A stretch of DNA of 44,915 bases from a bacterium (lineage in GTDB: Bacteria > CG2-30-53-67): NCBI GenBank assembly GCA_919901565.1, contig CAKKPE010000035.1, forward strand, positions 78,317 to 123,231, in the 5' to 3' direction. The notes under the pieces are model-generated. The model had not been told where the DNA came from. It did not search any database and was given only the letters and a program-made list of their open reading frames with translations. The position numbers were made by a program, and so were the translations under genes. Positions 22,914 to 44,245 of the stretch are shown piece by piece; position 1 is the stretch's first letter, and each line of letters begins with the position of its first letter.

Positions 22914-24367
22914 TTCCTATTTTTCTTAAATCTTGCCGGGATCGCACTCTTGAAGATCTCAATCTCATCTGAAGTAAAAGTATTGGATAAGAATAAAACT
23001 CCAAAATACATAAGAAATGCGCATACACCTAACAGTGCTATATTAATTTTATTCGCAAATAAAATAAAGAAAAGGTACATCGTCAGCCCTGCAAACAGCG
23101 GTTGAATAACAATATGATGAACCGGGATGAAATAAAGATATTTAGATATGTAGTAAAAATTAACCATAAAAAGAACCATGCATGAAATCAAAAAAGCCCA
23201 GCTGGCCCCAATGTTTCCATAATTCTTAACAAGAATAAAACCCAGCACACAATTGGTCATAAAACAGATCGAACTGCTTATTGTCAGGACTTTTTGTTTA
23301 TTGATTGAAGTTATGAGAAAACCTATCAAGGCGTTTATAAAAACCGGTATAACTGTCCATAGCAGTATCTGAAAAGATGCCGCAGATTCCGAGAATTTTT
23401 CCCCGAAAAGCAGCGAAACAATTTTCAATGCATTTATCGTAGCATATATGCAGAAAGGCAATGTGATAATAATAATGTATTTAAATGCCTTGCGATATGC
23501 GAATCTGAGCTGCATTCTGGCATTGCTTTCATGCCCTAAACGGGATAGCGTAGGAACCGTGGCAAACAGAAAAGCGTTGGGAACAATCATCAGGGGGGCA
23601 ATAATCCGTTGAGGAGCCTGAAACAGAGAGACCTGTACAGCGTCCCAGTATATTTTTATCTGGAATACGTTAATATATGTGTACGCCTGGGATAGAAAAG
23701 TGGATATGGCGATAGGCAAAGACTCCCTGAATATGAAGGCAAAGTATTTGAAATTGACGCTCCACTTGATTTTAGTAAACCTGTAAGCCAGGATTACAAT
23801 AGTCGAAAGCACGCCTATAGCATTCGCTATAACCAGAGAAATAAGAAGTCCCATCATACCCAGGTCTAAATAGGCAACCAAAACGAAGAGTAATATAGTC
23901 AGCGTTCTGGGTATGATGCTCGTCGCTGCATCATAGACCATATTTTCATAGGCAATGAATACAGTACCAAGGGTATTTGTCATTATGTATAAAACTTGTG
24001 ACAATAAGGCGAAATAGAGGGCGATAACGGTAGTGGAATCCATTCGATAGAAAAAGGCAATCAGCGTTGCTATTATCCAGACCACTATGCTCGTTAAAAC
24101 GTTAAGGGCAAGCCCTGAGATCACAAATTCAGAGGCATGTTCTTTTTTAACAGATATTTCTCTTATCAAGATTCTCAAAGAACCAAATGCGATGATAGGT
24201 GTGAGGGCAAAGGCTATGACCCTTATAAATGCATATTCTCCAAATACCTTAACACCCAGGTAACGGGTAGCAAGCATAATTGTCAATATTCCGGAAATTG
24301 CTTCTGATGCCCTCCCAATAGTGCTGTATACTGTATTTTTGGCTATTCTGTTAATGGCATGTTTCAT
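22910..24367 (-). CDS. Wzx-like polysaccharide flippase (MOP superfamily)
   Basis: A 485-residue, very hydrophobic protein with about 12-14 predicted helices. It begins HAINRIAKNTVYSTIGRASE and LTIMLATRYLGVKVFGEYAF, the usual first two segments of polysaccharide flippases of the MOP superfamily. It would move the lipid-linked repeat unit across the inner membrane. Neighbouring GT4, Wzy-like and acyltransferase genes support a Wzx/Wzy-dependent EPS pathway. No catalytic residues are expected. A ribosome site before the ATG at 24367 is weak. Confidence 0.88.
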   Translation of the reverse strand: MKHAINRIAKNTVYSTIGRASEAISGILTIMLATRYLGVKVFGEYAFIRVIAFALTPIIAFGSLRILIREISVKKEHASEFVISGLALNVLTSIVVWIIATLIAFFYRMDSTTVIALYFALLSQVLYIMTNTLGTVFIAYENMVYDAATSIIPRTLTILLFVLVAYLDLGMMGLLISLVIANAIGVLSTIVILAYRFTKIKWSVNFKYFAFIFRESLPIAISTFLSQAYTYINVFQIKIYWDAVQVSLFQAPQRIIAPLMIVPNAFLFATVPTLSRLGHESNARMQLRFAYRKAFKYIIIITLPFCIYATINALKIVSLLFGEKFSESAASFQILLWTVIPVFINALIGFLITSINKQKVLTISSSICFMTNCVLGFILVKNYGNIGASWAFLISCMVLFMVNFYYISKYLYFIPVHHIVIQPLFAGLTMYLFFILFANKINIALLGVCAFLMYFGVLFLSNTFTSDEIEIFKSAIPARFKKNRN

Positions 24368-26388: not shown

Positions 26389-27777
26389 TCATAGGTTATT
26401 CTCGACTGGCAACTCTTTTCCCGCCAAGCGGAATGTTGCGACAGCCAAACCTAAAACAAACCACACGAAGTCCATATAGTATGTAGTATATACCAAGCCT
26501 GTCAGGGCAATAAGAACCAGGCTAATCCCGTATGCTAAAGACATATTCTGAAGATAGGTTTCCTGCCGACTCAGCACTTTCAAAAACAGCTTCAATAAAA
26601 TGAACATAATAATGCAGCAGACGATCAGCCCCATAACGCCAAAATCAAAAAAAAGGGAAAGATATATATTATGGGCATGTGGTATCATGTAGGCTCGGGT
26701 AAAGTATTTATAACCACCTACTCCCAAGCCAAAAAGAGTCAGCCTCTTTTTGTCGAGTTCCATAAATCCAGTCTTCCAGAAATATATTCTTTTCCCAATG
26801 GAACTTTGCTGTGCTGTGCTTACATTGACAATACGGGGATCTTTGCTGCCTTGCGACCTTATGACAAGAGCCATAGTAAGGAAAATAGATACAAAGATGG
26901 CAAGGGTGGCCAGAAGATTCCGGATCATATTTTTCCTGAGCTTTATACTGAAAATTACGAATAAAAATAAAACCATAACAAGCGACCATGACCCGGCCTT
27001 GTTTCCTGTTAGAAATACAGCGGTGATACACATCAGAATTGCTATTCGCAGAAACCATCTCCTTGCTTTGTTGTTTTCTGTCAATAGAAGGCCCACGGCT
27101 GTAAAAACAACGATATCCAGCATGATGGAGGATATCTGCGGGCCGAGGAAAAAACCGCTGGCATTCAATTCGTTGAGGTTGCTTTGTGATAAAACCTGAA
27201 TACTAAAAACATTCAGGGCCTTTATGATCAGGTCCTCTTGTATAAAAGCAAGGTTTTGGACGACATAGCCGAATTCCACCATGGTTTGAACAGAGATAAC
27301 CAGTCCTGAAAAAACCATGCACCACATCAGCCTTCGATGGAGTTTTACATCGTCGATGAAATAAAACAGGTAGTAGAATAATATAATATCGATGATTAGA
27401 TGAAATAGATAAAGCAACTTGAAGCCCATGCCGGCGGGGCTCCAGAACAAGGTTGAAATACTATAGGATACAAGAAGAAAAACCGGCAAGAAGATCGGGT
27501 TTTTGATGATATCTCTGGATGGCTTGGTTAAAACATTTATTATGAGGAACGGAAAAGGAATTACGGCTAATAAGAGCATCAGGGGTATGGCATCGGATCT
27601 ATCGAATCCGCGCATATTCAAATAGACATTTGGATATTTCATCCCAATCATCGGAAATAAAAATACCGACAAATATACCCATACCCGCGGGAATATATGC
27701 AGAACTATTACTAAGACAATAAAAAAAGAGAACCCGATAGCCTGGTACCATGGGAGAAAGATACACATTAATCCCAA
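26389..27777 (-). CDS. Wzy-like polymerase / O-antigen ligase family protein
   Basis: A polytopic protein of about 462 residues with roughly 11-12 membrane helices. The C-terminal half has the O-antigen ligase-like pattern: FLTGNKAGSWSLV, GKRIYFWKTGF, then LFGLGVGGYKYF and MIPHAHNIYLSLFFDFG with the conserved histidines. It would polymerise the repeat unit in the periplasm or ligate glycan to a lipid. The start is not clear: no good ribosome site lies before the TTG at 27777 or the ATG at 27768, and the frame stays open almost to the previous stop at 27849 (reading LINRIIETYSFFHPKWLG), so the true N-terminus may be up to about 23 residues longer. Confidence 0.8.
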   Translation of the reverse strand: MGLMCIFLPWYQAIGFSFFIVLVIVLHIFPRVWVYLSVFLFPMIGMKYPNVYLNMRGFDRSDAIPLMLLLAVIPFPFLIINVLTKPSRDIIKNPIFLPVFLLVSYSISTLFWSPAGMGFKLLYLFHLIIDIILFYYLFYFIDDVKLHRRLMWCMVFSGLVISVQTMVEFGYVVQNLAFIQEDLIIKALNVFSIQVLSQSNLNELNASGFFLGPQISSIMLDIVVFTAVGLLLTENNKARRWFLRIAILMCITAVFLTGNKAGSWSLVMVLFLFVIFSIKLRKNMIRNLLATLAIFVSIFLTMALVIRSQGSKDPRIVNVSTAQQSSIGKRIYFWKTGFMELDKKRLTLFGLGVGGYKYFTRAYMIPHAHNIYLSLFFDFGVMGLIVCCIIMFILLKLFLKVLSRQETYLQNMSLAYGISLVLIALTGLVYTTYYMDFVWFVLGLAVATFRLAGKELPVENNL

Positions 27778-30554: not shown

Positions 30555-31619
30555 CTATGTATGATGTACCATTTCTATCACATTTTTCCAGCGCATAGCA
30601 GCTTCCTTTACATCATACATCTTGATTACCTTCTCTCTCCCGTTTCTGCCAAATTGATTCCTCAAATCCGCAGAGGCCTCCAGTTTTAATATTGCGTCTC
30701 TAAATCCCGCTTCATCATTTTTTGCAACAAGAAATCCATTTTCCCCGTCATCAACTATTTCACTTGGGCCGGCACAGTCGGATGAAATCACCGGTATTTG
30801 GCAGGACATCGCTTCGATCAAAACAATACCAAAGTTTTCATGAAATGACGGAAGGATTACAATGTCTGAGTTCTGATAAATCGATACCAACTCCTTTTTA
30901 TCCCTGATAAAGCCGAGATATCTGACAGGATAGTTTTCATTCTGCAGTCTCACGATCTCTTTTTCGTAGGGCCCGCCGCCGGCAACCAAAAACTCTATGT
31001 TTTGCCAGCTGTATTTTTTAATTAAATTTACAAGCAGCGGCATTCCCTTTATTCTCAAAAATTTCCCCACATAGAGCACTCTAACTTTATCCGAAGGAGT
31101 TTTATGAGAAGCAGGCACAAACAAATCCGTGTCAACAGAGTGCGGCATGTAAAAGGACTTGGCGCCGTACTTTGCTACGCCTTCGCATGAAGCCTTTGTC
31201 ACCCCGGCAGATATGGTCCCGTTTAGAAATTCACGCCATGCCGTCATCTGAGAAGCAAAATAAATTTTTTCGAGGTATTTTTTACCATCCCAATACGGCC
31301 AGGAGGTGTAATAAATACATTTATGTTTTAACTTCAATTTATTGAGCAGAAATACCACGATGCTGAAAGGTGCCGCTCCTATGATGAGGGTTTTGTTTTC
31401 AGAGAATAGGAGTTTGATGATTTCATAAATGTTTGTAAATATTTTGAGAAAAAGCCGTTTGTCCTCAAAGCCGTGAAGAATGATCGAAACCTGCTTGAAT
31501 AATGAAAATTCGATAAACTTTATTTCAACGGTTCCATCTTTTATCAAAAGGCTTAGCGCTTCGCTGTAACTTGAATTCTCAATTCTAAGCGGCTGCAAGC
31601 TTATGATTTCATACTGCAT
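30555..31619 (-). CDS. Family 4 glycosyltransferase
   Basis: A 354-residue GT-B enzyme: VRVLYVGKFLRIKGMPLLV, EFLVAGGGPYEKEIVRLQ and PSFHENFGIVLIEAMSCQIP (E-x7-E donor motif), then SDCAGPSEIVDDGENGFLV. The N-terminal acceptor domain is less conserved. Its ATG overlaps the stop of the acyltransferase-like gene (TAATG), so the two are coupled. It probably adds one sugar of the EPS repeat. Confidence 0.88.
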   Translation of the reverse strand: MQYEIISLQPLRIENSSYSEALSLLIKDGTVEIKFIEFSLFKQVSIILHGFEDKRLFLKIFTNIYEIIKLLFSENKTLIIGAAPFSIVVFLLNKLKLKHKCIYYTSWPYWDGKKYLEKIYFASQMTAWREFLNGTISAGVTKASCEGVAKYGAKSFYMPHSVDTDLFVPASHKTPSDKVRVLYVGKFLRIKGMPLLVNLIKKYSWQNIEFLVAGGGPYEKEIVRLQNENYPVRYLGFIRDKKELVSIYQNSDIVILPSFHENFGIVLIEAMSCQIPVISSDCAGPSEIVDDGENGFLVAKNDEAGFRDAILKLEASADLRNQFGRNGREKVIKMYDVKEAAMRWKNVIEMVHHT

Positions 31620-32590
31620 TAGATATTTTTCCTCTCTTGAGCCCTGTTCACATTTTGAAAAAGATTCGTTTCCAGCGCGCCTTCTTGAATTAATTCCTCA
31701 ACACGCATTAATGTCATTGCATAATGGCATGGGTATTGTTTAATGTATCTCTCAAATGTCTTGGCGAATTTGGCTATATTCAACGCAAGGGTTCCCTCCT
31801 CATCTTTCGCCAACTCAAATTCAAAGGGCGGCTCAATGATGAGCCTGTGCCTGTCATCTCTTTGTCTGATTATGAATGTAGGCAATATGGGAGCCTTTGT
31901 CTTAAGAGACAATTTAAACGGCCCCGGCGCAAAGAAAGCCTTATGGCCGAAAATATCCGCCTGGAACCAACGATTCCCTTCTCCTCCGTCAAATGCTATA
32001 AAAAGTATCTCGTTCTTTCTTAATGTATTGAATACAGATCTCATATAATTCCCGACTAAAATGAAATTAATCGGCAGTTTCTCTGACTCTCTTAGCCTGA
32101 CTTTAAATATCTTTCGATGCATTGGACTCTGTTTATCTATCAGTGGTACGCCTGCAAGCTGATGGATCTTGTATCCCTTGAAGCCTAACGCAAGGGGAGG
32201 AAGCATGTGAGACCCGAAGTGAGCAGTAAGGAGGATTGCGCCGTTGTTCTTTTTCAGGGCATTATCAAGATTTTCAATTCCTTCTATCGAAACCATCCGG
32301 TCTAACAATTCCGTAGAACTTTTACCCATATAAATATTCTCCACCTGTCTTTTGCTGAATATCTGTAACCCTTCATATGTCATTTTCTTAATCGTTTTCT
32401 GGTCCAACGATGAGGTCTTGCTGAATAGAAAGGCAAGTTCCCTGCTCATGAGGTATCTCTTCCTTTTTGAGAATACATATAGCACAATTCCGATTAACTT
32501 CCCGGTGAAATTGACCAGCTTCAAAGGCAAGCGCTGAATCAATAACCGGAGTGGAAACCAGACAATCCAGAGAACGATATCCGAAAACAA
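31619..32590 (-). CDS. LpxL/HtrB-like acyltransferase family protein (atypical active site), copy 2
   Basis: A 323-residue relative of the protein at 21939-22913. It starts at a TTG (32590) with AAGGA at a suitable distance, then a hydrophobic anchor (FSDIVLWIVWFPLRLLI). The active-site segment is GAILLTAHFGSHMLPPLAL, so H124-x4 is followed by Met129 rather than Asp/Glu. FIAFDGGEGNRW and PFKLSLKTKAPILPTFII are the expected later blocks. It may have lost acyltransferase activity or may use another residue. It directly follows the SGNH gene of the Dlt-like cassette. Confidence 0.78.
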   Translation of the reverse strand: MFSDIVLWIVWFPLRLLIQRLPLKLVNFTGKLIGIVLYVFSKRKRYLMSRELAFLFSKTSSLDQKTIKKMTYEGLQIFSKRQVENIYMGKSSTELLDRMVSIEGIENLDNALKKNNGAILLTAHFGSHMLPPLALGFKGYKIHQLAGVPLIDKQSPMHRKIFKVRLRESEKLPINFILVGNYMRSVFNTLRKNEILFIAFDGGEGNRWFQADIFGHKAFFAPGPFKLSLKTKAPILPTFIIRQRDDRHRLIIEPPFEFELAKDEEGTLALNIAKFAKTFERYIKQYPCHYAMTLMRVEELIQEGALETNLFQNVNRAQERKNI

Positions 32591-32639: not shown

Positions 32640-33644
32640 TTATTTCGTCATTGCAGACAGTTTAGATGAAATAAGTTTTGAGAATTTAACGGCTCCTTTA
32701 TAGTTTAAATGGTCCTGATTCAGAAAAATCGTGTGATCAGCAGCATAGGCATCTTCCAGAAAATCCAAATGCTTATCTATATGTTTTTTGAATCTTGGAT
32801 TTTCCAATACCCTTTCATAGAGCTGGTCTTTGGTTACATATTTCTTCGAATATTTCAGATAGTAGTCTGTCTCCGGAAGACTCAGAGTTATAACCTTAAT
32901 GTTCTTGTCTTTGCACATTTTCAATATTTTTTCGAAATAGAGCAGGAAGATATCGTCAAAACTATTTTGGCCATCGAACTGTCGTTTCACTCTTCTCAAA
33001 GCGTTTCCCTCTCTGATATCACTTCCTGTTTCCTTTACATATCCATTATGGATTTCTGTCTTATCAATAGGCTGATTCATGAGTAGGCTCTTTACATTCC
33101 TGAAGAAATTAATCATCTGAATTCTTTTAATGACAGGACAATAGCTCAACAGCTTTTCTCTAAACACCATCATCCCTTTTATTTTATATAATTCCATAAT
33201 CTCCGGGTATGTTATGTACCCATATGAAAAATATTCCCATTGTATTTCGTCTGCCCTAAACGATGAAAAAGTTGGCAAGGTTACTGACAATATAACTATT
33301 TTCAGTTCGGGCATATCATTGATATAGTGTTTCAATTTATAATAGGTTTCTATAAAACTTTCTCCGGCACCTGCAAAATTAAACGTTCTATCATTAAATT
33401 CATCCGGGACAATGCCAAACTGTATATCTGACTGACCGAGGGACAGGATCTGGATTTCGCCTTTTTGCTTTTCAAAATCCTGTACAACCCTTTCAAATAT
33501 GCTTTTAGGTCTGAAAAGCACTCTGTCTGTGATCTCTATAGAGAATATGATTATAAAAAAGATAAGAAATGCCATACATATTCCCTTAAACCAGTTCTGA
33601 TTTGCAACGCCGGAAGACGTCAATGATGACTTAGAATTTTTCAT
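32640..33644 (-). CDS. SGNH-like transferase with N-terminal membrane anchor (DltD-like role)
   Basis: About 334 residues from the ATG at 33644 (MKNSKSSLTS), with GAAGG about 8 nt upstream; this start overlaps the microprotein gene by 14 nt. Residues 20-38 form one membrane helix, and the rest should lie outside the cytoplasm. The SGNH block I is ILSLGQSDIQFG with probable nucleophile Ser72. Block V is FLNQDHLNYKGA with His312. Proteins of this kind accept an acyl group and move it to a polymer, as DltD does for teichoic acids and AlgJ/AlgX-type proteins do for alginate. It follows MBOAT, carrier and microprotein genes, which strongly supports such a role. Overall similarity to DltD itself is low. 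Confidence 0.72.
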   Translation of the reverse strand: MKNSKSSLTSSGVANQNWFKGICMAFLIFFIIIFSIEITDRVLFRPKSIFERVVQDFEKQKGEIQILSLGQSDIQFGIVPDEFNDRTFNFAGAGESFIETYYKLKHYINDMPELKIVILSVTLPTFSSFRADEIQWEYFSYGYITYPEIMELYKIKGMMVFREKLLSYCPVIKRIQMINFFRNVKSLLMNQPIDKTEIHNGYVKETGSDIREGNALRRVKRQFDGQNSFDDIFLLYFEKILKMCKDKNIKVITLSLPETDYYLKYSKKYVTKDQLYERVLENPRFKKHIDKHLDFLEDAYAADHTIFLNQDHLNYKGAVKFSKLISSKLSAMTK

Positions 33645-33753
33645 ATACGAAGCCTTCAAGTTTGTAGCCTGAAAGGTACAAAACATAAACCACCAGAATA
33701 ACGATAAGAATAAGAGTTACTGTTAATGCTAATGATTTTTTCCCCTTGTTCAT
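33631..33753 (-). CDS. 40-residue membrane microprotein ending in FVYEKF (DltX-like acyl shuttle candidate)
   Basis: A small gene with a strong Shine-Dalgarno (AAAAGGAG, 6-7 nt before the ATG at 33753). The protein is a short basic start (MNKGKK), one membrane helix (about residues 8-28, LALTVTLILIVILVVYVLY), and an outside tail SGYKLEGFVYEKF ending at the stop. The last six residues fit F-x-Y-x-x-F exactly. In the Dlt pathway the DltX microprotein has this layout, and its C-terminal hexapeptide tyrosine carries the acyl group from the MBOAT to DltD. Here the tyrosine is Tyr37. The gene sits between the carrier protein and the SGNH protein and overlaps the latter by 14 nt. Function is inferred from layout and neighbours. 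Confidence 0.72.
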   Translation of the reverse strand: MNKGKKSLALTVTLILIVILVVYVLYLSGYKLEGFVYEKF

Positions 33754-33809
33754 AATATTCTCCTTTTTAAACTTTTCCAGCCTATCTTTCCTGTTGTTTA
33801 AAAACAGTG

Positions 33810-34046
33810 CTATTTATGCATTTTGCTTTCTATGGTTTTCATCATATCATTGATCGTGCTAAATTTATCCATAGTAACTTCGCTCATATCAATAGAAACC
33901 TTTAACTTCTCTTCAATAAATGCAAGCAGTTTAATAAAACCAAGCGAATCTATGATCCCTGATTCAAATAACTGCTCATCATCCGCAATGGTTCCCTGAT
34001 CATACATAAAGTTACTGACTATAAATTTCTTCAGCAGTTCTTTCAT
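33810..34046 (-). CDS. Acyl carrier protein (DltC-like role)
   Basis: A 78-residue, acidic carrier protein. AAGGAG precedes the ATG. The phosphopantetheine site is ESGIIDSLGFIKLL with Ser34, and the flanking helices match the ACP/PCP fold. It would carry an acyl or aminoacyl thioester made by an adenylating enzyme; candidates are the ligases at 39989-41491 and 15341-16783. It lies 12 nt after the MBOAT stop and 56 nt before the microprotein start, in the position expected for the intracellular donor of a Dlt-like system. Confidence 0.88.
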   Translation of the reverse strand: MKELLKKFIVSNFMYDQGTIADDEQLFESGIIDSLGFIKLLAFIEEKLKVSIDMSEVTMDKFSTINDMMKTIESKMHK

Positions 34047-34058
34047 TCATTATCTCCT

Positions 34059-35246
34059 TTATATTATCTGATATACAATAGCCTTCACGGTGCTCATGTC
34101 AAAAGCAAACAAGATATATCCAAAGCTTACAAAGGTAAATGTAATGAATGTAGAAAATGGAACTGCGTAAGGGTTGTCGACCAGTTTTCGTATTTTAGCA
34201 TGTTTCTTTTTTATTTCCTGGAAAAACTGCCATATAAGCAGACCGGAACCATGATATACCCCCAAGAGAAGAAAAGGCAGGCTGCCCTCGTGCCATAGCA
34301 TAAAAATTACCATGGTTGAAAATATGCCGATGTAAATTTTTGCCTGAGATGCCCGGTAGCCAAAAAAAGGGAAAAAAAAGTAATCCCTTATAAAGCTGTA
34401 GACAGACATATGCCAGTTTCTCCAGAAGAGCGCTATATTTTTCTTGAGATAGGGATTATTAAAATTCTCCACAATCTTGTATCCGAACAATCTAGACACG
34501 CCAAGGGCCATGTCTGTATATCCAGAAAAATCCATATAAATCTGGATCGCCAGACCGTAAACTGAAAGTGTGACCAGCAGAGGCGAAACGTCTTGCGGAG
34601 AAAGAAGCAAGGGCATTATATATTTTTTAATTGAGTCAGCAACAACAAACTTTTTTATCATTCCGGAGATCATGCGGAACAACCCGTAATTGAAATCAGA
34701 AGAATCAAAAGATTTACATCCCGCAGTCTGAGGCTGAACCTTCTGAAACCTGTCGACCGGCCCGGCCAGGAATGTCGGAAAGAAAAACGTATATAACGCC
34801 AAATCCCAGAACGTATGTTCCGGCAAGGTTTTCCTGTAGATCTCCACTATATAATGAATCAGCCTGAAAATAACATAAGACATCCCCAATGGCATGATAA
34901 TCTTTGAGAATGTAGTTTCGTTCATGAATGGAAGGCTTATTCCAAGCCTGGATAAAGCATCGAGCATAAAATTAATATATTTGAAAATACATAGATTCCC
35001 GATGAGCCAGAATAAAGAAAGCTGTAAAAAAAGTTTTCTGTTTTTTTCGTCCCTGCTGACATAGCTCCCTGCAATATAAATCAATAAAGAATTAAAAAAA
35101 AGATATACCGCATACTTCGGACTAAGAAAACACATAAAAACAAGGCTCGCTCCAACTAAAAATATACTGCGCTTTCTCCACGGGAGAAGCCAGTAGATCA
35201 AAACACTCACAGACATAAAAATTAAAAAATATAATACCTGCTGCAC
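34059..35246 (-). CDS. MBOAT family O-acyltransferase (DltB-like role)
   Basis: A 395-residue polytopic protein starting at GTG 35246 with AAGGAAC in front. Family blocks are MPLGMSYVIFRLIHYIVEIY, FFFPTFLAGPVDRF, YMDFSGYTDMALGVSRLFG, NFNNPYLKKNIALFWRNWH and MLWHEGS, with catalytic His319. It has about 10-11 helices. MBOATs such as DltB and AlgI take an acyl group from a cytoplasmic thioester and present it outside. The protein is shorter than AlgI (about 500 residues) and close to DltB (about 400), and its C-terminus (MSTVKAIVYQII) lacks a fused F-x-Y-x-x-F tail, which agrees with a separate microprotein. Confidence 0.9.
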   Translation of the reverse strand: MQQVLYFLIFMSVSVLIYWLLPWRKRSIFLVGASLVFMCFLSPKYAVYLFFNSLLIYIAGSYVSRDEKNRKLFLQLSLFWLIGNLCIFKYINFMLDALSRLGISLPFMNETTFSKIIMPLGMSYVIFRLIHYIVEIYRKTLPEHTFWDLALYTFFFPTFLAGPVDRFQKVQPQTAGCKSFDSSDFNYGLFRMISGMIKKFVVADSIKKYIMPLLLSPQDVSPLLVTLSVYGLAIQIYMDFSGYTDMALGVSRLFGYKIVENFNNPYLKKNIALFWRNWHMSVYSFIRDYFFFPFFGYRASQAKIYIGIFSTMVIFMLWHEGSLPFLLLGVYHGSGLLIWQFFQEIKKKHAKIRKLVDNPYAVPFSTFITFTFVSFGYILFAFDMSTVKAIVYQII

Positions 35247-35325: not shown

Positions 35326-36681
35326 CTAATGTCTCCTCAATACAAATTTGGCAAACGGTTTCAAGACCTTATCAATGAATTTAATCAAATATATTATAAA
35401 ATAATCCAGACACCGATAAGAAGATTTAGTGTAAAAAAGCTTTTTTAATTCTTTTACATCTTCCGGCAATAAATCAGTATCCTTACGCAACAACCCGTTC
35501 TCAACGGCGATTTTGTGTATTTCAGTGTAAGGTTCTATGCGTATCCAACTGAGGAAGACCCCGCCTCGACCAGAGAGATAGATAGGGATCTTAAAATAAA
35601 GATACAGAGTTTTTATCACATTACCAAATCCTGCCTGAGGGATGAAAAAGAAACTATAGCCTGCCTTTACACCATCTATTTTCTTCATCATTCTCAGATT
35701 TTTCTGTATATCCTGCTCCGTAATACCTTTTCTCAAGAAGGAAAGCGCCTTATCGGTTGCACCGTCAGGCGAGAAACCAAAATGTTTACAGCCTGCCTTC
35801 CTGGCAAGAAGCACAAGGTCTTCAGTGGTGTGTTTTATCTCAAACCAGGCACTCCATTCAACATCCAATTTTCTTCTGATAATTTCTTCGCAAATCTCCT
35901 TCGCATGCGAAGGAGGGATATTAAAGATATTGTCTACAAAAGTAAACTTTTTGATTCCCAAACTGATCAGATATTCTATTTCATCAACAACGGACTCGGA
36001 CGAACGGAGACGTAATTTCTTGCCGCTTAGAAAAGGATAACCGCAGTAGGTACAATCAAGCATGCATCCACGCTTGCTTTGAATCCCGATAAAGTTGTCC
36101 ATTGGCCCGTTATATTGCTGAATATCTACAATCTCTTTGTCCCTTTTCGGAACAGGCAATTTGCTGAAATCGGGAAGTTCTCTGGGGCCGGTAAAATGAA
36201 CTGAATTGTTCTTGCGTATATAAATTCCTTTAACCATTCCTGGTGAATCTATATGATCTAACAATTCCGGTGTGGATTCCTCTCCCTCTAAATAAATCCC
36301 GAAATCAAATTCCGGAATTCTTTCCATGATTTTTTGAGCAAATATGGAGAAGCCTGCACCACCGACCAGAAGTTTAATGTTCGGATTGATTTCTTTGATC
36401 AGATGCGCTGTTGGCTTAATGGTTTTAAAATGATAAAAAATATCCGGCCTGTAAGTAGAATCGATGTTGCGAATAGAAATTCCGACAACATCAGGATGAA
36501 AATTCATGATTTCTGTTTTCAGCTGATCATAGGCGGAAGACAGCTCCCACATATTCAGATCAACTATTTTTACATGGTGTTTCTCTCTTAAGGCATTGGC
36601 TATATAACACAAGCCTATCGGAAACAACGGGTGGGAAAACGTTATTCTTCCCAAATGTGATTGTAGTAATAAGACTTTCAT
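35326..36681 (-). CDS. B12-binding-domain radical SAM protein
   Basis: A 451-residue protein with AGGA 8 nt before the ATG. The N-terminus is B12-binding-like (MKVLLLQSHLGRITFSHP, VVGISIRNIDST, LLVGGAGFSIFA). The radical SAM core has SKRGCMLDCTYCGYPFLSG (C-x3-C-x2-C) and KKFTFVDNIFNIPP. It resembles the protein at 18030-19490 in layout but not closely in sequence. It lies between the MBOAT and the Wzc-like gene. A methylation or rearrangement of an EPS sugar or lipid is plausible, but no substrate can be assigned. Confidence 0.85.
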   Translation of the reverse strand: MKVLLLQSHLGRITFSHPLFPIGLCYIANALREKHHVKIVDLNMWELSSAYDQLKTEIMNFHPDVVGISIRNIDSTYRPDIFYHFKTIKPTAHLIKEINPNIKLLVGGAGFSIFAQKIMERIPEFDFGIYLEGEESTPELLDHIDSPGMVKGIYIRKNNSVHFTGPRELPDFSKLPVPKRDKEIVDIQQYNGPMDNFIGIQSKRGCMLDCTYCGYPFLSGKKLRLRSSESVVDEIEYLISLGIKKFTFVDNIFNIPPSHAKEICEEIIRRKLDVEWSAWFEIKHTTEDLVLLARKAGCKHFGFSPDGATDKALSFLRKGITEQDIQKNLRMMKKIDGVKAGYSFFFIPQAGFGNVIKTLYLYFKIPIYLSGRGGVFLSWIRIEPYTEIHKIAVENGLLRKDTDLLPEDVKELKKLFYTKSSYRCLDYFIIYLIKFIDKVLKPFAKFVLRRH

Positions 36682-36771: not shown

Positions 36772-38808
36772 TTACACACAGTTTATAACGACTCCTATGG
36801 CGGGGATATTTGCATTTTTTAAGAGCTCGTCGGTTCTGGACATGTCATCGCGGGTTGTCTTTTTGCTCCTAAGCAGAATTATCATATCGTCTAAATTCTT
36901 CATCAATAAAACAGCGTCATTCTTCAGCAAGAGCGGCGCTGAGTGGAATAAGAGAATATCATATATTGCTTCCAGTTTTCCTACGACATCCTTCATCTTG
37001 TTTGACTTGATAAGCAGCCCTGAGTCAGAAGGTGCAGAACCTGCGGGCAGGACATCCAGACCGTCAATCCCTGAAGCAAGTATGGCTTTTTCTATCTCTG
37101 TGTTTTCCAATAACAAATCAGCAAGTCCCTCTGTGTTCTGAAGATCAAACAATTCGTGCAGCTTAGGTCTTCTGAAATCAGCATCCACCAGAAGAACTTT
37201 TTTCCCTTCTCTGGCAAGTATAATGCCCATATTGGCTGCTGCAGTAGCACTGCCTTCTTTGGGGTTGATACCGCTGATTAACAATTTTTTATATGGATGA
37301 TCAAGACTTGCAAATTGAGCGCTGGATAGAACCTTCCGGTATGATTCATACAACGGATCATTAGGGTCTGTCATTGAAATGAGATGTTTCCCTTTTTTAA
37401 ATTCGGGAATCGAACCCAGGAATGTAAACCGATAATCCTTCAGATCTTTATAATCCCTGATTGTTTGATCCATATAATCTATCAAGAATGCGATGAAAAC
37501 ACCCCAGAATAAACCAAGGAAAATTCCGACGATATAAATCAGCGTTTTCTTGGGGAAATACATTGCCTTAGAGTCAGGCGCCTGCGCAGGTTCAACCAAT
37601 CTGATCTTAGAGACAGTCATCGATTCAGCGACATTCACCTGACTTAAAAATTCCAGAAGCTCTTTGTATATACTCTGATTTGCAGTAATTGAAAGGTCTA
37701 AGGCAGTGAGTACCATGTTTTTATTAGGTATTTTTAACAGTTCCGTCTGGGATTTGTTCAGGAATTTATTTAATAGCTCTCTCTTTATTTCTCCAATCCT
37801 TTTACTAATATATGCATCTTTCAGATTTTTCACTAATTCGTCATAAACCGGAGCCATAGAAATATCATTCTCACCGAATGCCACCTCCAACTTTTCCTTA
37901 AGCAAACCTCTTAAAACCTCAACCTCCTTGTTAATCTGTAAAACATCAGGATGTTCTTCGGTAAGTTCACTCCTTTTCCCGGCGACTTCGACTAATAAGT
38001 CATTCAGCTTGCCTTCCATGGAACTTATTAAATTGCTTGATGCATATTCTTTCCCTGCGAGCTTTTTTTCAATCAAGGCAATGCTTTCGACAGCCTGGAA
38101 AATAGCGATTTCATTGGCCTTATAATCAGTTTTCAACTGCTCAATATAAGTGAGAAGATTTTTGGTCTCGACATCTATATCCACAGTTCCTTCCTGAATC
38201 ATAAAAGCCTTTTTCTTCGCTAAAGAATCATCATATTCTTTCTTAATATCCTTTATCTTGTCTTGTATATATGTACGGGCGATTTTGAAGCTCTCTCTTC
38301 TCCTTTCAAGGGTGTAGGATATATAGAGTTCCGCCAATTTGTTTGCTATATTGGCGGCTTCTTCACGGTTTGTAGAACCGCCGGTGATTTGCAGCATGTC
38401 CGACTGTTGATACTGATCAACATCTATATAGGGTCGCGGAAAAAGCAGGGTAACCGGAGAGAATATGATCTTGTCCGCTGTCATTTTATCCCCATTCCTC
38501 TTTTCGAGATTCAGTTCAGCAATCAGTTTTCCGAGGACGGGTTTTACCTGGGCAAGAGCTATCTCCGTATCATAAGTTGGAGTCTGGGATGTGCTCTTCT
38601 GTTGAGTATCCGGAATATTAAGGCTGGCCATCAGGGTAGACATGCCATCGTCTGATGACTGAATAAGCACCTTGCTTCTTCCCTCGTAAAGCGGAGTTGC
38701 TACATTAGCCCCTATCACAGCCGTGATTAAAATGATTAAAAAACTGGCGATAACTATCCATTTTCTACGAAGGATAATTTCCCAATATTTTCTGAGTTCC
38801 ATAGCCAA
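36772..38808 (-). CDS. Wzc-like chain-length/BY-kinase protein with degenerate ATP site
   Basis: A 678-residue inner-membrane protein. Residues 1-40 hold a Wzz-type helix (MELRKYWEIILRRKWIVI). A long periplasmic coiled-coil region follows, and a second helix lies near ALIYIVGIFLGLFWGVF. The cytoplasmic domain has Walker A' VLLVDADFRRPKLHELF intact, but the P-loop reads GINPKEGSATAAANMG where a G-K-T/S is expected, and Walker B reads ILLFHSAPLL where D-x-P-P is expected. The C-terminus ends IGVVINCV without the tyrosine cluster of bacterial tyrosine kinases. It probably controls chain length and export without kinase activity. The start may be the ATG at 38802 instead of the TTG at 38808. Confidence 0.85.
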   Translation of the reverse strand: MAMELRKYWEIILRRKWIVIASFLIILITAVIGANVATPLYEGRSKVLIQSSDDGMSTLMASLNIPDTQQKSTSQTPTYDTEIALAQVKPVLGKLIAELNLEKRNGDKMTADKIIFSPVTLLFPRPYIDVDQYQQSDMLQITGGSTNREEAANIANKLAELYISYTLERRRESFKIARTYIQDKIKDIKKEYDDSLAKKKAFMIQEGTVDIDVETKNLLTYIEQLKTDYKANEIAIFQAVESIALIEKKLAGKEYASSNLISSMEGKLNDLLVEVAGKRSELTEEHPDVLQINKEVEVLRGLLKEKLEVAFGENDISMAPVYDELVKNLKDAYISKRIGEIKRELLNKFLNKSQTELLKIPNKNMVLTALDLSITANQSIYKELLEFLSQVNVAESMTVSKIRLVEPAQAPDSKAMYFPKKTLIYIVGIFLGLFWGVFIAFLIDYMDQTIRDYKDLKDYRFTFLGSIPEFKKGKHLISMTDPNDPLYESYRKVLSSAQFASLDHPYKKLLISGINPKEGSATAAANMGIILAREGKKVLLVDADFRRPKLHELFDLQNTEGLADLLLENTEIEKAILASGIDGLDVLPAGSAPSDSGLLIKSNKMKDVVGKLEAIYDILLFHSAPLLLKNDAVLLMKNLDDMIILLRSKKTTRDDMSRTDELLKNANIPAIGVVINCV

Positions 38809-38831: not shown

Positions 38832-39992
38832 TTATACTTTCAGCAGAATCTTTCCGCCTGTCCTCTTTGTAGAAGCAACGATGGCATCCAAAATCTTCTC
38901 GAATGGGTATTTTGCTGTAATCATTTTTTCCGGATTCAATTTCCCTGAAGCAATTAATTTAATGATATTCGGAAATATTTCATAACCTGAATGGCCCCTC
39001 GCGCCTATAATCTTATTAGCGCCGGAGACGAGGGCATCCAGATACACAGGCGTAGTTGTAGCTGCTCTACCCAGATAGATGATCTTGCTGTTTGCTGACA
39101 TGGACTTCTCCATTTCGGGTATTGTCAAAGGCGCAGCCCCCGCAGCCTCTATTTGAATCTCGGCGCCCCGCCCGTTTGTAATTTCCATGACTTTCTCACT
39201 CGGTTTATACCCGTTTAACTTTCCAGCATTAAAAACATAATCAGCTCCCATATCTTCTGCTATCCTTAACCTCTCATCGATCACATCAAATACTATAATC
39301 TGGCTGGCGCCGGCTAACCTGGAGAGGGCAACAGCCCCAAGTCCAATAGAACCTGCGCCATATACGACAACGGTTGCTCCCGGATTAAATCCTCCACCGG
39401 CAATGAAAATACCATTGTAGGCACACCCTATCGGCTCAATAAGAGCTGCTATGTCAAATGTTTTATCTCCCGAAAATACCTTTGCAATACTATTAATCTT
39501 CCAGCAATGCCTTGCATTGACGCTTATATATTCGGCAAAAGCGCCGTCAGCGCTTAAGCCTAATAATTCCACATGTTCACACTGGTTAGGATGCCCGCTC
39601 CTGCAGGGCTGGCACATCCCGCACCACATAATACTCTCTACCGCAACTTGATCGCCAACCTCAAGGGTACTTACCCTGCTGCCGGTTTTTTCAATAACTC
39701 CCGAGAATTCATGTCCCAGAATACACGGCAGTTTGGTTAAGCCGGAAAATATGATATATCCTTCATGATCCGTTTCATATAAATGTGTATCAGAACCGCA
39801 TATGCCACAGGCTTTAACCCTGATCAGCACTTCATCATCTCTGATATCGGGTACAGGCACATCTTTCACTTCAAAATGAGGATGACGCCATACCTGACTG
39901 CCGATCATGGCTCTCCTCTTTACCTTTTCGTCTTCACTCATGCCATAGTTGTTTTTCGGTGACCACTCGGCATCAACAACCAGTGCCCTCAT
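38832..39992 (-). CDS. Zinc-dependent medium-chain alcohol dehydrogenase
   Basis: A 386-residue MDR enzyme. It has the catalytic zinc motif VKACGICGSDTHLYE, GHEFSGVIEKTGSRV, the structural zinc cysteines CGMCQPCRSGHPNQC, and the NAD-binding VVYGAGSIGLGAVALSR. The overall pattern resembles scyllo-inosose or polyol dehydrogenases more than ethanol dehydrogenases, but this is only a resemblance. It overlaps the stop of the adenylating enzyme by 4 nt, so the two should be made together. It may supply an oxidised sugar or polyol for the glycan or for its acyl modification. Confidence 0.85.
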   Translation of the reverse strand: MRALVVDAEWSPKNNYGMSEDEKVKRRAMIGSQVWRHPHFEVKDVPVPDIRDDEVLIRVKACGICGSDTHLYETDHEGYIIFSGLTKLPCILGHEFSGVIEKTGSRVSTLEVGDQVAVESIMWCGMCQPCRSGHPNQCEHVELLGLSADGAFAEYISVNARHCWKINSIAKVFSGDKTFDIAALIEPIGCAYNGIFIAGGGFNPGATVVVYGAGSIGLGAVALSRLAGASQIIVFDVIDERLRIAEDMGADYVFNAGKLNGYKPSEKVMEITNGRGAEIQIEAAGAAPLTIPEMEKSMSANSKIIYLGRAATTTPVYLDALVSGANKIIGARGHSGYEIFPNIIKLIASGKLNPEKMITAKYPFEKILDAIVASTKRTGGKILLKV

Positions 39993-41491
39993 TTCATCTC
40001 CATCTGCAATTGCTTCTTATTGATTTTCCCGCTCCCGATCTTTGGCAGACTTTCTCTGAACTCCACTATTCTCGGCACCTTGTAATGGGGCATTTTCTCT
40101 CTACAGAATTCGATTATTTCCTTCTCTGTTAAATTCCTGCCATTCTTTAAAACAATAATGGCCAAGGGTATTTCTCCCCTTAGTCTGTCCCTTGAAGAGA
40201 CGACTACGGCTTCTTTAACATCCGGGTGCTCAATCAGCACAAGCTCAATCTCCATAGGATAGACCTTAAGACCAGCCACCTTCAGCATGCCTGTTTTCCT
40301 ATCTACAAAATAGAAGTTGCCGTTGCCGTCCGTTCTGCCCAAATCTCCGCTGTAATACCAGCCATCTTTAAAAGATTCCTGGTTATTCATTAAGTCTTCA
40401 TAATAGCTCTGGATGACTGCGGGCCCCTTAAAGATCATCTCCCCGATTCTCCCATTCGGGAGTTCAACACCATTCTCGTCAACAATCTTTATCTCATAAG
40501 ACATGCAGGGTTTTCCTATGGAACCGGGAATGAACGGCTCTCCAGGAACGTTGGCAATGGCGATACCCGTTGTCTCGGTGCTGCCCCATACAGGCAGAAT
40601 GGGTACGCCGACCTTCTGCCTGAAATTGTTGATAAGATCTGCCCTTGTATGCATGCCTCCGCTTTCCGGAATCCTTAAAGAACTAAGGTCATATTCTTTA
40701 TGTTCGAGTAACTCCAGCATGGTCTCATACATTGGAGCTAACCCCATCATACAGGTAACGCCATGAACTGAAATTGCTTCGGCGATTGATTTAGGATATA
40801 TTGTATCCACCAAGACTATTGTCCCTCCTAAATAAAGGGGCCTGGCAAATATCTCATGCGGGTGGGCAAATGGAGCAAACATGCAAAGGTGGACATCATC
40901 GTGTGTCAGTTTAAGAGCATCTACTGAAGCAAGAGTATTCCAATATATATTTGAATGGGTAGTTAGTGCACCCTTGGCATTCCCTGTAGAACCCGATGTA
41001 TAGTTAAGATAAACAATATCATCTTCATTTACCTTAATGAAGAGATTATCGGAACTTCTGCCTTTTAAAACATTATCCCAGGATAAGCTTTCCTCAAAGC
41101 TCCCTTCACCAACAGATATGACAGGAATTTCTGAGCATGAGGGGATAGAACTTCTCGCCAGCGCCAAATATTTTTTATGGACGAAAAGGCAGCGGGGCTT
41201 GATATGTTCCAGAATGACTCTAAGCTTATCATCCATGAACTCATAATTCAAAGGAGCCAATATCCCCTGAGCCTTTGCGACTCCAAGAAAAATAACAATA
41301 AGTTCGGGTATTCTGGGAAGCATAACGCCGACCCTGTCACCTTTCTTAAACCCTATGTCAATCAAGGTATGAGCCAGCCTGTTTGCGGATTCGTTCAGTT
41401 CTCGATAAGTAATCCTGATGCCATGATAGGCTATGGCTGTCTTCTCTGGAAAATTTTTCGCATTTCTTTCAATCATCTCTACAAGAGTCAT
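39989..41491 (-). CDS. AMP-dependent acyl/aminoacyl adenylating enzyme
   Basis: A 500-residue ANL superfamily protein. It starts TLVEMIERNAKNFPEKTAIA, then the P-loop YLNYTSGSTGNAKGALTTH, VWGSTETTG, GWYYSGDLGRTD with DRKTGMLKVAGLKVYPMEIE, and the catalytic lysine in GSGKINKKQ. It forms an acyl-adenylate and transfers the acyl group to CoA or a carrier. As the only such gene upstream of the MBOAT/carrier cassette in the same transcription direction, it is the best candidate to charge the carrier at 33810-34046, in the role of DltA. Substrate choice (D-alanine, other amino acid or fatty acid) cannot be read here. Confidence 0.88.
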   Translation of the reverse strand: MTLVEMIERNAKNFPEKTAIAYHGIRITYRELNESANRLAHTLIDIGFKKGDRVGVMLPRIPELIVIFLGVAKAQGILAPLNYEFMDDKLRVILEHIKPRCLFVHKKYLALARSSIPSCSEIPVISVGEGSFEESLSWDNVLKGRSSDNLFIKVNEDDIVYLNYTSGSTGNAKGALTTHSNIYWNTLASVDALKLTHDDVHLCMFAPFAHPHEIFARPLYLGGTIVLVDTIYPKSIAEAISVHGVTCMMGLAPMYETMLELLEHKEYDLSSLRIPESGGMHTRADLINNFRQKVGVPILPVWGSTETTGIAIANVPGEPFIPGSIGKPCMSYEIKIVDENGVELPNGRIGEMIFKGPAVIQSYYEDLMNNQESFKDGWYYSGDLGRTDGNGNFYFVDRKTGMLKVAGLKVYPMEIELVLIEHPDVKEAVVVSSRDRLRGEIPLAIIVLKNGRNLTEKEIIEFCREKMPHYKVPRIVEFRESLPKIGSGKINKKQLQMEMK

Positions 41492-41537: not shown

Positions 41538-42368
41538 TTATTGGGCAGGAACGGATATGCCACTAGAAGCGCCTCCACTATTTCTCAGTTCTATTGACTG
41601 GCCAATATAATATCCACTTTCAAGCGAAACTATCGGTGAAATGATCGCCGATAAGTGGGTAAAAAATTTGTCCACATTAGAAATAGTGGTTCTTGGTACA
41701 TAAATGATGTCGCCTCTTTGCAGTACAACATTTTGCGATAAATCGCCTTCTCTTAAAGCTTTTTCCAGATTAAGAACGGATAATTTTGGTTTTTTTATAT
41801 CTCCCCTTATAAGTAAAACGTTTTTCTGTTTACCATCCAGAGTAAAACCGCCTGCCTGAGATATCAGATCAAGGGCGGTCAGGGTAGTCTCCATCTGGAA
41901 ATATCCCGGGTTTTTAACCTCACCAAGGACGATAACCTTTTGAGCCTGGAAACTTACAACACCAACCGAAACCTGAGGGTCGATAATGTATTTTAAAAGT
42001 CCTTCCTGAATCTTGTCTCTTAACTGGAAAATGCTCCCCCCGCCAGCCTGGATATCCTTAACCAATGGAAAAGTAATTTTTCCCGATGAGCCGATCTGAA
42101 TGGTCCTATGCAGATCGTCATGACGATAAACCATAATTTCAATCTTGTCTCCAGGGCCAAGGATAAACTCACTGACTCTTGCCTCATTAGCGGATTCTTC
42201 CGATGTTGGAGCAATTATATCTTCTGAACTAATTTTAGGGGATTCTTCCGATGTTGGAGCAACGATATCTTCTGAACTAATTTGTGAAGTATCTTTTGTT
42301 GTTGCGCAACCAAATAAAAAAAAGAGAATAAAAATAGATGCATATAATATATTTCTTTTAAGAAGCAT
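41538..42368 (-). CDS. Wza-like polysaccharide export lipoprotein (OPX family)
   Basis: About 276 residues from the ATG at 42368 (MLLKRNILYAS), which has AAGGAG 7 nt upstream; an extended frame to 42431 lacks this. The signal peptide ends in the lipobox FLFGC, so it is a lipoprotein. Residues about 25-52 are a low-complexity acidic repeat. The export domain follows: FILGPGDKIEIMVYRHDDL, the poly-export segment with KITFPLVKDIQAGG, and an SLBB-like part (KVIVLGEVKNPGYFQM, DGKQKNVLLIRGD). The protein is shorter than E. coli Wza (379) and would form an outer-membrane or periplasmic exit path with the Wzc-like partner. Confidence 0.88.
   Translation of the reverse strand: MLLKRNILYASIFILFFLFGCATTKDTSQISSEDIVAPTSEESPKISSEDIIAPTSEESANEARVSEFILGPGDKIEIMVYRHDDLHRTIQIGSSGKITFPLVKDIQAGGGSIFQLRDKIQEGLLKYIIDPQVSVGVVSFQAQKVIVLGEVKNPGYFQMETTLTALDLISQAGGFTLDGKQKNVLLIRGDIKKPKLSVLNLEKALREGDLSQNVVLQRGDIIYVPRTTISNVDKFFTHLSAIISPIVSLESGYYIGQSIELRNSGGASSGISVPAQ
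42193..42283 (-). repeat. Tandem 48-bp coding repeat in the export lipoprotein
   Basis: Two units start at 42193 and 42241 (48-bp spacing), nearly identical over their shared part. They encode SSEDIVAPTSEESPKI and then SSEDIIAPTSEESANE, just after the lipid anchor. The acidic, flexible repeat probably forms a spacer between membrane and folded domain. Recent duplication is likely, and copy number may vary between strains. Confidence 0.75.
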
Positions 42369-42439
42369 ATTTATTCTCCTTGGTTTTAAGTTTTTGAACA
42401 TGGAATACCCGCCTGATACTAAAACAGACAAAATTCGTT

Positions 42440-44245
42440 TTAATACGCTCCTGATTTTTTGATGACAACTTTTATTGTCTTAAACAATATCGTCAGATCC
42501 AACCATAATGATCGGTTATTTACATAGTACATATCATATTTTATCCATGTATGGAAAGGCACTTCACTTCTACCCTGGATCTGCCATAATCCTGTCAGAC
42601 CGGGCTTTACTTTCAGCCTTGAATCTCTCCAACTTGGGCTGAATTTCATCTCATTCATGATTAATGGCCTGGGACCAACGAGACTCATTTCACCTTTTAA
42701 AACATTATACAATTGAGGAAGTTCATCAAGACTGGTACTTCTAAGCAGCTTGCCAAGCCTGGTGACTCTTGGATCATTGGTGAGTTTGAACATCGGGCCG
42801 TCCATCTCATTCTGAGAAATGAGTTCTTTATGAAGCCTTTCAGCTTCCGTAACCATGGTTCTAAACTTTACCATCCCGAATAATTTGCCGCCGAGACCGC
42901 ATCTTTTCTGGATATAGAATACAGGTCCTTTAGAATCTATCTTTATCGCTATGGCAAGCAGCAGAAAAAACGGCAGCAAAAGAACAGCGCCGCTCAGAGA
43001 GACAACAAGATCCATTAACCGTTTTGCTATCTTGTATATATGATGCTTGATCTTGGGCAATGAGACAGCACCGGATATATCAACTGTACCTTGAATAATA
43101 TGATCTGAAGGAACAAGGTTTGCATCTCTGGCACTGAACCCATTTAATACAATCATGTTTTTAATATAGGAGTTATTCGGGACATGAGATTTCTCTCCGA
43201 TTATGGAATGCTCTACTTTTGCACCGGCTGATAAAAATATACCATCCCACAATATACTCTCACGAATCAGAGTGCCTTCTGATATTTGGCATCCTTTACC
43301 AATGACTGTAGGACCGATGATCTGCGCCCAGTCTCCGATTGTGCAACCATCGCCTATAACAATTGGGCCCAATAAATAGGCATTGGAAGATAATTTCACA
43401 TCTCTTCCTATCCATGTTTTTTCTGCTATTTCTTCCTTGCCGTAGAGGTAAAAGTTGTGGATTTCATTATCCAGGAGGATGTCCCTCTGAATCCTGATAT
43501 AATCGTTTACACTTTCAATGAATTGATAAGAGCCTTTAATTTCATGTGCAACGACATTCAGTGATTCTCTTTGCAATGCAGGAATCAGTTGTTCTTTGAT
43601 ATCCATATAAATATTTTCTTTGATAAACTTAAGAACAGTAGGATTGAAAATATATATACCGCTGGTCCTCCATGGCGATCTTCTATCTATTGAAGAATGG
43701 ATAATATGGAAACTTGTTATTTTATTTTCTGCATCTAATTTTACGCACTCTCGTGCAAGATTATTTCTATTATCTCTATATATCCCTACAGTGGCAGCCG
43801 CCTTCGATTTATAATGAAAGTCAATAGCACTACCTAAATCAACATGTTCTATGAAAACATTCCCATTGATTACTATAAAGGCTTCTTCATTAATAAATTT
43901 TTCAAGATCTTTAATAGTGCCTGCTGGGCCTCGCAATTTGTTTTCTTTGTGGAAAAATATTTTAATGCCCGCAAAATAGAGTTCTTTTAATCTTTTCGGG
44001 ATCTCATAATTCTCGGATACGGCTATGGTTATTTCCTCTATCCCGTTTCTGACTAAAAAACCAAGAATCAATTCAATAATAGGCACATTGACAATTGGAA
44101 GCATCAAAGGGGGATGGTATTGTGTTATGGGCCTTAAATGCGTTCCCTGTCCTCCAGCTAAGACTATAGCTTTCCTGATCTTTGTCTTTCTCAGGAAATA
44201 GCTTGTAAATATATTCTTTTTTTTACTCTGCAGTTTCAATTCCAA
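42440..44245 (-). CDS. Degenerate nucleotidyltransferase/LbH fused to a polyprenyl-phosphate sugar transferase
   Basis: A 601-residue fusion. The start is the TTG at 44245, set by a strong GGAGG 6 nt upstream. Residues 25-250 are a nucleotidyltransferase domain with LAGGQGTHLRPITQ and YHPPLMLPI: the usual GTRLRP arginine is His36, the usual KP lysine is Pro, and N-G-N replaces N-G-D. Residues about 270-380 are left-handed beta-helix hexapeptide repeats (GPIVIGDGCTIGDWAQIIG). Residues 408-601 are a WbaP/WcaJ-type phosphoglycosyl transferase with one helix, VKFRTM, TSLDELPQLYNVLKGEMS and VGPRP. This part starts repeat-unit synthesis on undecaprenyl phosphate. The N-terminal half may now be regulatory. 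It is the first gene of the EPS block. Confidence 0.85.
   Translation of the reverse strand: MELKLQSKKKNIFTSYFLRKTKIRKAIVLAGGQGTHLRPITQYHPPLMLPIVNVPIIELILGFLVRNGIEEITIAVSENYEIPKRLKELYFAGIKIFFHKENKLRGPAGTIKDLEKFINEEAFIVINGNVFIEHVDLGSAIDFHYKSKAAATVGIYRDNRNNLARECVKLDAENKITSFHIIHSSIDRRSPWRTSGIYIFNPTVLKFIKENIYMDIKEQLIPALQRESLNVVAHEIKGSYQFIESVNDYIRIQRDILLDNEIHNFYLYGKEEIAEKTWIGRDVKLSSNAYLLGPIVIGDGCTIGDWAQIIGPTVIGKGCQISEGTLIRESILWDGIFLSAGAKVEHSIIGEKSHVPNNSYIKNMIVLNGFSARDANLVPSDHIIQGTVDISGAVSLPKIKHHIYKIAKRLMDLVVSLSGAVLLLPFFLLLAIAIKIDSKGPVFYIQKRCGLGGKLFGMVKFRTMVTEAERLHKELISQNEMDGPMFKLTNDPRVTRLGKLLRSTSLDELPQLYNVLKGEMSLVGPRPLIMNEMKFSPSWRDSRLKVKPGLTGLWQIQGRSEVPFHTWIKYDMYYVNNRSLWLDLTILFKTIKVVIKKSGAY

Follow-up and report, generated by a model that had tools for sequence, protein, structure and literature searches.

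Gene content of the locus

The window (the whole 44,915-nt stretch of DNA that was analysed) carries on its reverse strand a cassette encoding an MBOAT protein, an acyl carrier protein, a microprotein and an SGNH protein. This cassette lies inside a Wzx/Wzy/Wzc exopolysaccharide cluster of a diderm bacterium, in which glycosyltransferases are also encoded (Table 1). The assignment to diderms follows from the presence of LptD in the genome; the cluster itself includes an outer-membrane exporter.

Table 1. Features of the cassette and its surroundings (positions in the window unless another locus is named)
Feature	Position	Strand	Remarks
Wzx-type flippase	22910..24367	-	
Wzy/O-antigen-ligase family protein	26389..27777	-	
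LpxL-like acyltransferase	31619..32590	-	Adjoins the cassette, also in L034
SGNH/DltD-like transferase, 334 aa	32640..33644	-	One N-terminal helix, GQSD (Ser72), DHLN (Asp311, His312)
Microprotein (putative acyl shuttle), 40 aa	33631..33753	-	Single hydrophobic helix; basic N-terminal end; FVYEKF as the last six residues
Ribosome-binding site AAAAAGGAG and 6-nt spacer to ATG	33754..33768	-	AAAAAGGAG at the same place in L034
Acyl carrier protein, 78 aa, DSLG site	33810..34046	-	PP-binding, E 7e-9; DltC model 43 bits, cut-off 68
MBOAT, DltB-like, 395 aa, no fused shuttle motif	34059..35246	-	TIGR04091 166 bits, cut-off 375
B12-binding radical SAM protein	35326..36681	-	Precedes the MBOAT gene; kept in L034
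Wzc-like chain-length determinant/tyrosine autokinase	36772..38808	-	
AMP-forming acyl ligase, candidate carrier loader	39989..41491	-	67% ortholog in the L034 locus
Outer-membrane polysaccharide export protein (Poly_export/SLBB)	41538..42431	-	
Fused nucleotidyltransferase and polyprenyl sugar-phosphate transferase	42440..44245	-	
Dehydrogenase and amino-acid ligase in an MBOAT/carrier/microprotein cassette	L035:7490-10244; L038:8459-11258		

Other genes of the cluster include a second LpxL-like acyltransferase (21939-22913) besides the one adjoining the cassette, and two further radical SAM proteins (29556-30524 and 18030-19490), two of the three having B12-binding domains. Between the genes for the Wzc-like protein and the acyl ligase lies that of a scyllo-inosose 3-dehydrogenase (38832-39992; IolM, over the cut-off), no counterpart of which was seen in the Wzc/acyl-ligase gap of L034, and a Type I phosphodiesterase-family protein is encoded at 24554-26230.

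The microprotein gene and its conservation

The ORF starts with ATG and has 40 codons, its product being MNKGKKSLALTVTLILIVILVVYVLYLSGYKLEGFVYEKF (MNKGKK...FVYEKF), and the coding strand ahead of it reads AAAAAGGAGAATATT-ATG. A preliminary description of this DNA had pointed to a strong ribosome site, a clean helix and a functional-looking C-terminus exactly at the stop, all of which were recovered in our analysis: AAAAAGGAG is separated by 6 nt from the ATG, and a single hydrophobic helix precedes the FVYEKF tail. A single helix, a basic N-terminus and an F-x-Y-x-x-F sequence ending at the stop are DltX-type features, the last six residues corresponding to the acyl shuttle of the Gram-positive Dlt system, and the orthologs keep these features. 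It had also been argued that the starts of this gene and of the SGNH gene are fixed by the 14 nt that they share. The overlap is indeed of 14 nt (33631-33644, with the SGNH start at 33644, MKNSK...) and is identical in the L034 ortholog. However, it does not fix the starts on its own, because the SGNH ORF has an earlier in-frame ATG both in the window (33686) and in L034, and the microprotein gene of L035 does not overlap an SGNH gene. The lack of overlap in L035 also indicates that conservation of the tail is not a by-product of the SGNH coding sequence.

One scan of the collection identified five close orthologs of the MBOAT (46-66% identity, then 34%), in MAGs of Nitrospirae, Syntrophaceae and Omnitrophota. 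L036, the contig of which ends soon after the MBOAT gene, was kept out of the count of complete loci. A microprotein ending in F-x-Y-x-x-F was found in the four ortholog loci of four that were complete (FVYEKF in L034, FVYEEF in L035 and L037, and FLYSLF in L038), even at more than 4 kb from the MBOAT gene. The preliminary description had proposed a comparison for synonymous-biased substitution, and had taken frameshifts or stop codons in close relatives as evidence against a gene. The comparison between the window and L034 revealed such a bias, with 33 nucleotide differences distributed as 7/3/23 over codon positions 1/2/3 (7/3/22 without the codons overlapping the SGNH gene), a pN of 0.155 and a pS of 0.73. 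These amount to 10 amino-acid differences, versus 20.6 expected at random, and none of 5000 simulations gave a value as low. The differences between L035 and L037 were distributed as 6/1/17. No frameshift or stop was present in any ortholog, L034 being one codon shorter.

In the whole 44.9-kb window, this is the one ORF of at least 30 codons that ends in F-x-Y-x-x-F, the mean in 200 dinucleotide shuffles being 0.05. A search of the genome with the motif only yielded 16 matches, not above the reversed control (43), so F-x-Y-x-x-F is informative only with its context. An ORF of just 40 codons might be thought to have arisen by chance. However, the strong synonymous bias, the conserved ribosome site, the motif in every complete ortholog locus and the low shuffle expectation all speak against this; the substitution pattern and the shuffles rule it out, and its probability is negligible. 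The microprotein ORF is a real, conserved gene under protein-level selection.

Partners of the microprotein and a proposed acyl relay

In the MBOAT, His319 is shared by all the orthologs and occupies the aligned position of the conserved MBOAT histidine (WH in DltB), and a profile built from this protein and its orthologs matched DltB in the PDB (E 4e-40). Its structural model (pLDDT 62) was too weak to be used as a structure-search query. A plasmid search retrieved distant MBOATs only, with about 28-35% identity among the matches listed. The best-scoring model for the carrier protein was DltC, below the cut-off, and the carrier gene, which lies between the MBOAT and microprotein genes in the window, directly follows the MBOAT gene in the window, L034, L035, L037 and L038. 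In the SGNH protein, S72 and H312 were invariant across seven SGNH proteins. Neither a DltD nor any other informative family match was obtained for it by sequence; the 11 best PDB matches of its model were all DltD (E 2e-6 to 9e-5), and these were the sole matches under E 0.001. The SGNH partner is DltD-like as judged by comparison of a weak model (pLDDT 68). The cassette is conserved, with partners that belong to the DltB, DltC and DltD types. The Syntrophaceae locus L035 has two SGNH copies, one on either side of the microprotein gene (L035:10364-12600).

The preliminary description had presented the ORF as the element that makes the MBOAT/SGNH pair an acyl-shuttle system, a view supported by the absence of the motif from the 395-aa MBOAT: this MBOAT is short and lacks the F-x-Y-x-x-F extension, so that the motif is supplied by the microprotein gene. 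The carrier gene, the separate microproteins of other lineages and the DltD-like SGNH protein are additional to that description. We propose, with a probability of about 0.75, that the 40-aa protein acts as a free-standing acyl shuttle in a Dlt-like relay acylating an exopolysaccharide, a scheme in which we infer the chemistry, the cargo and the acceptor. An acyl acid would be activated, most likely by the AMP-forming ligase of the cluster, and loaded on the carrier protein; this ligase is the likely loader since a 67% ortholog occupies the matching place upstream in L034. From the carrier thioester, the MBOAT would then transfer the acyl group across the membrane onto Tyr37 in the periplasmic FVYEKF tail, the tail would swing to the SGNH protein and pass the acyl group to Ser72, and the SGNH protein would esterify the exopolysaccharide, or a lipid-linked repeat, produced by the Wzx/Wzy/Wzc cluster. 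Tyr37 is proposed as the loading site because F-x-Y-x-x-F is a published shuttle motif, the tyrosine of which has been shown to be acylated in PatA and is described as such in DltX (PMC12148441). Several points count against the relay: the window microprotein itself has no DltX match, the SGNH and MBOAT models are weak, the LpxL-like neighbour could also draw on the carrier protein, and the gene following the microprotein gene in L038 (L038:11466-12863), considered as a candidate SGNH gene, encodes a sulfatase, and no SGNH partner was identified in that locus.

As a single-helix protein, the microprotein could instead be a structural subunit joining the MBOAT and the SGNH protein, with the acyl group travelling another way, and DltX also binds both of its partners (PMC12148441). 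However, in the alignment extending from the window to L103, invariance beyond the start methionine is confined to F35 and Y37 in the tail, the helix sequence being free to vary, and the same tail is kept in MBOATs with a fused motif. A purely structural role is therefore very improbable. The carrier protein might also have a different client. LpxL-type enzymes take acyl-ACP as substrate, and the carrier could serve the LpxL-like acyltransferase that adjoins the cassette both here and in L034, with the MBOAT, microprotein and SGNH protein using acyl-CoA like PatA; several split MBOAT loci, in which motif and MBOAT are encoded separately, showed no carrier gene. Yet the carrier gene comes right after the MBOAT gene even in loci in which no LpxL-like gene was noticed (L035, L037 and L038), and we consider such a division of labour unlikely, if less so than a structural role.

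The resemblance of the partners to DltB, DltC and DltD raises the question of a true Dlt system, with a DltA gene outside the locus, that would place D-alanine on a surface polymer, and a few Gram-negatives, Dickeya and Pectobacterium among them, are reported to have dlt genes (PMC5541007). However, nothing in the 97%-complete genome exceeded the cut-off for DltA, the best match being the window ligase (114 versus 560 bits), which is of the acyl-CoA-ligase rather than the amino-acid adenylation type, and the DltB and DltC models scored below their cut-offs. A D-alanine system is thus improbable, ranking between the two preceding alternatives. The DltX profile (Pfam PF12459) did not match the window microprotein and gave scores below the cut-off of 25 with its orthologs (L035: 18.4 bits, E 0.0015, ending at the model end; L037: 14.6), and a PDB profile search with the microproteins yielded chance matches only. 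Given a microprotein that the DltX profile does not recognise and the absence of DltA from the locus, we do not file this locus as a Dlt system; it would nevertheless work like one.

The type of the ligase argues against an amino acid as cargo in the window, and the acyl group is probably other than D-alanine. The cassettes of L035 and L038 include a dehydrogenase and a ligase. The best models for the L035 dehydrogenase were PigA (450 bits, cut-off 500) and RedW (393 bits, cut-off 650), and its best PDB match was a prolyl-ACP dehydrogenase (4irn, E 7e-123), far above ordinary acyl-CoA dehydrogenases. The ligase of both cassettes is of the amino-acid adenylation type, with the L-proline carrier ligase 6o6e as the best free-standing PDB match, and the specificity residues in L035, read by motif position, are D-L-L-Y-L-A-L-V-C, which we take to agree with the code of pyrrole-forming prolyl ligases. 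These genes suggest a prolyl-derived acyl group destined for a surface polymer. In L037, a fatty acyl-AMP ligase gene (L037:10942-12993) directly precedes the microprotein gene, which makes a fatty acyl cargo possible there. Because of this difference between L035/L038 and L037, the cargo probably varies between relatives. Candidates for a PigA-type dehydrogenase in the genome of the window were discarded, as the matches were far below the cut-off and belonged to an apparent fatty-acid oxidation cluster.

Split and fused shuttle motifs compared with known systems

We compared 135 loci, the MBOATs of which were chosen by likeness to the window MBOAT. A C-terminal extension with F-x-Y-x-x-F, absent from the window MBOAT, was present in 112 of them. 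In each locus we looked for a separate ORF that encodes a single hydrophobic helix and terminates in the motif; none was found in the 112 fused-MBOAT loci (914 kb), versus 13 of the 23 non-fused loci. Among these 13, L150 duplicates L156, the MBOAT of L100 is a fused one with a frameshift, and the ORF of L081 is antisense and doubtful, leaving ten firm split loci (L034, L035, L037, L038, L004, L022, L103, L156, L157 and L158), and the separate microprotein occurs in six further lineages. Some of the remaining non-fused loci are cut by contig ends, and no shuttle ORF was found near the short MBOATs without a fused motif of L041, L046 and L080. L081, from Woesearchaeota, has a short MBOAT and a hydrophobic ORF ending in FVYIDF on the minus strand, with its stop near base 71; this ORF lies in antisense over the beginning of the SGNH gene and may be a product of chance or an archaeal shuttle. 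Phosphodiesterase- or sulfatase-like genes lie beside the split cassettes of L038 and, apparently, L004.

In trees built without the columns of the fused extension, the fused MBOATs formed one clade (SH-aLRT 99 with 79 rows; bootstrap/SH-aLRT 99/95 with 38 rows), and DltB and all split MBOATs fell outside it. It is likely that an older free shuttle was fused to the MBOAT, a direction that an unrooted tree with a long DltB branch does not prove; with a single fused clade, the order of events is testable. A broader proposal, to which we give somewhat less than even odds, is that separate shuttles define a widespread, largely overlooked class of diderm (and perhaps archaeal) MBOAT/SGNH systems. 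This class would either predate the fused form or be its sister group, and the fused form would have a single origin. The shuttle being modular, such systems might place carrier-bound cargo of many kinds on surface polysaccharides, among them pyrrole-2-carboxyl or dehydroprolyl groups of prolyl origin. Annotation readily overlooks genes of about 40 codons, and the short MBOATs that look like 'orphans' in many genomes may therefore belong to complete systems. A carrier protein also opens cell-surface acylation to cargo beyond acyl-CoA pathways, and two relatives point to proline-derived groups.

The window has the features of the MBOAT/SGNH shuttle class, namely an MBOAT with its histidine, a shuttle motif, here separate, and an SGNH protein with catalytic serine and histidine. 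It shares the motif, the pairing and, in the proposed scheme, polymer acylation in the periplasm with PatA/PatB and AlgI/AlgJ. In fused pairs of this kind, however, the motif lies on two extra MBOAT helices, the donor is acyl-CoA and there is no carrier or microprotein (PMC12148441), whereas the window MBOAT is short and both carrier and microprotein are encoded by separate genes. According to a 2025 paper (PMC12148441), carrier proteins and DltX-like microproteins are absent from non-Dlt MBOAT/SGNH pathways. This does not hold for the clade of the window, which has both, or for the other split loci, which have the microprotein. The working principle, an acyl shuttle, is already known, and the dlt genes reported in a few Gram-negatives (PMC5541007) make it probable that a diderm shuttle microprotein is in itself nothing new.

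The window and the DltX-DltA-DltB-DltC-DltD system have in common a single-helix F-x-Y-x-x-F microprotein, a short MBOAT, a carrier and an SGNH protein of the DltD fold. The window differs in having no DltA and no significant DltX match, an MBOAT and a carrier below the DltB and DltC cut-offs, a location in a diderm exopolysaccharide cluster and a cargo that is probably not D-alanine. Gram-negative dlt operons (dlt of Dickeya and Pectobacterium, dra of Bordetella) are described as including DltA, with the order dltDXBAC reported for Dickeya; they resemble the window in that Dlt-type genes occur in a diderm, but the window lacks DltA and its genes belong to a polysaccharide locus. The prolyl-carrier ligase and dehydrogenase of L035 and L038 recall those of pyrrole biosynthesis (PigI/PigA, PltF, RedW and AnaB). 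Whereas the pyrrole pathway enzymes feed natural-product assembly, their counterparts in L035 and L038 sit in an MBOAT/microprotein cassette, and the window locus has no pyrrole-type ligase or dehydrogenase genes.
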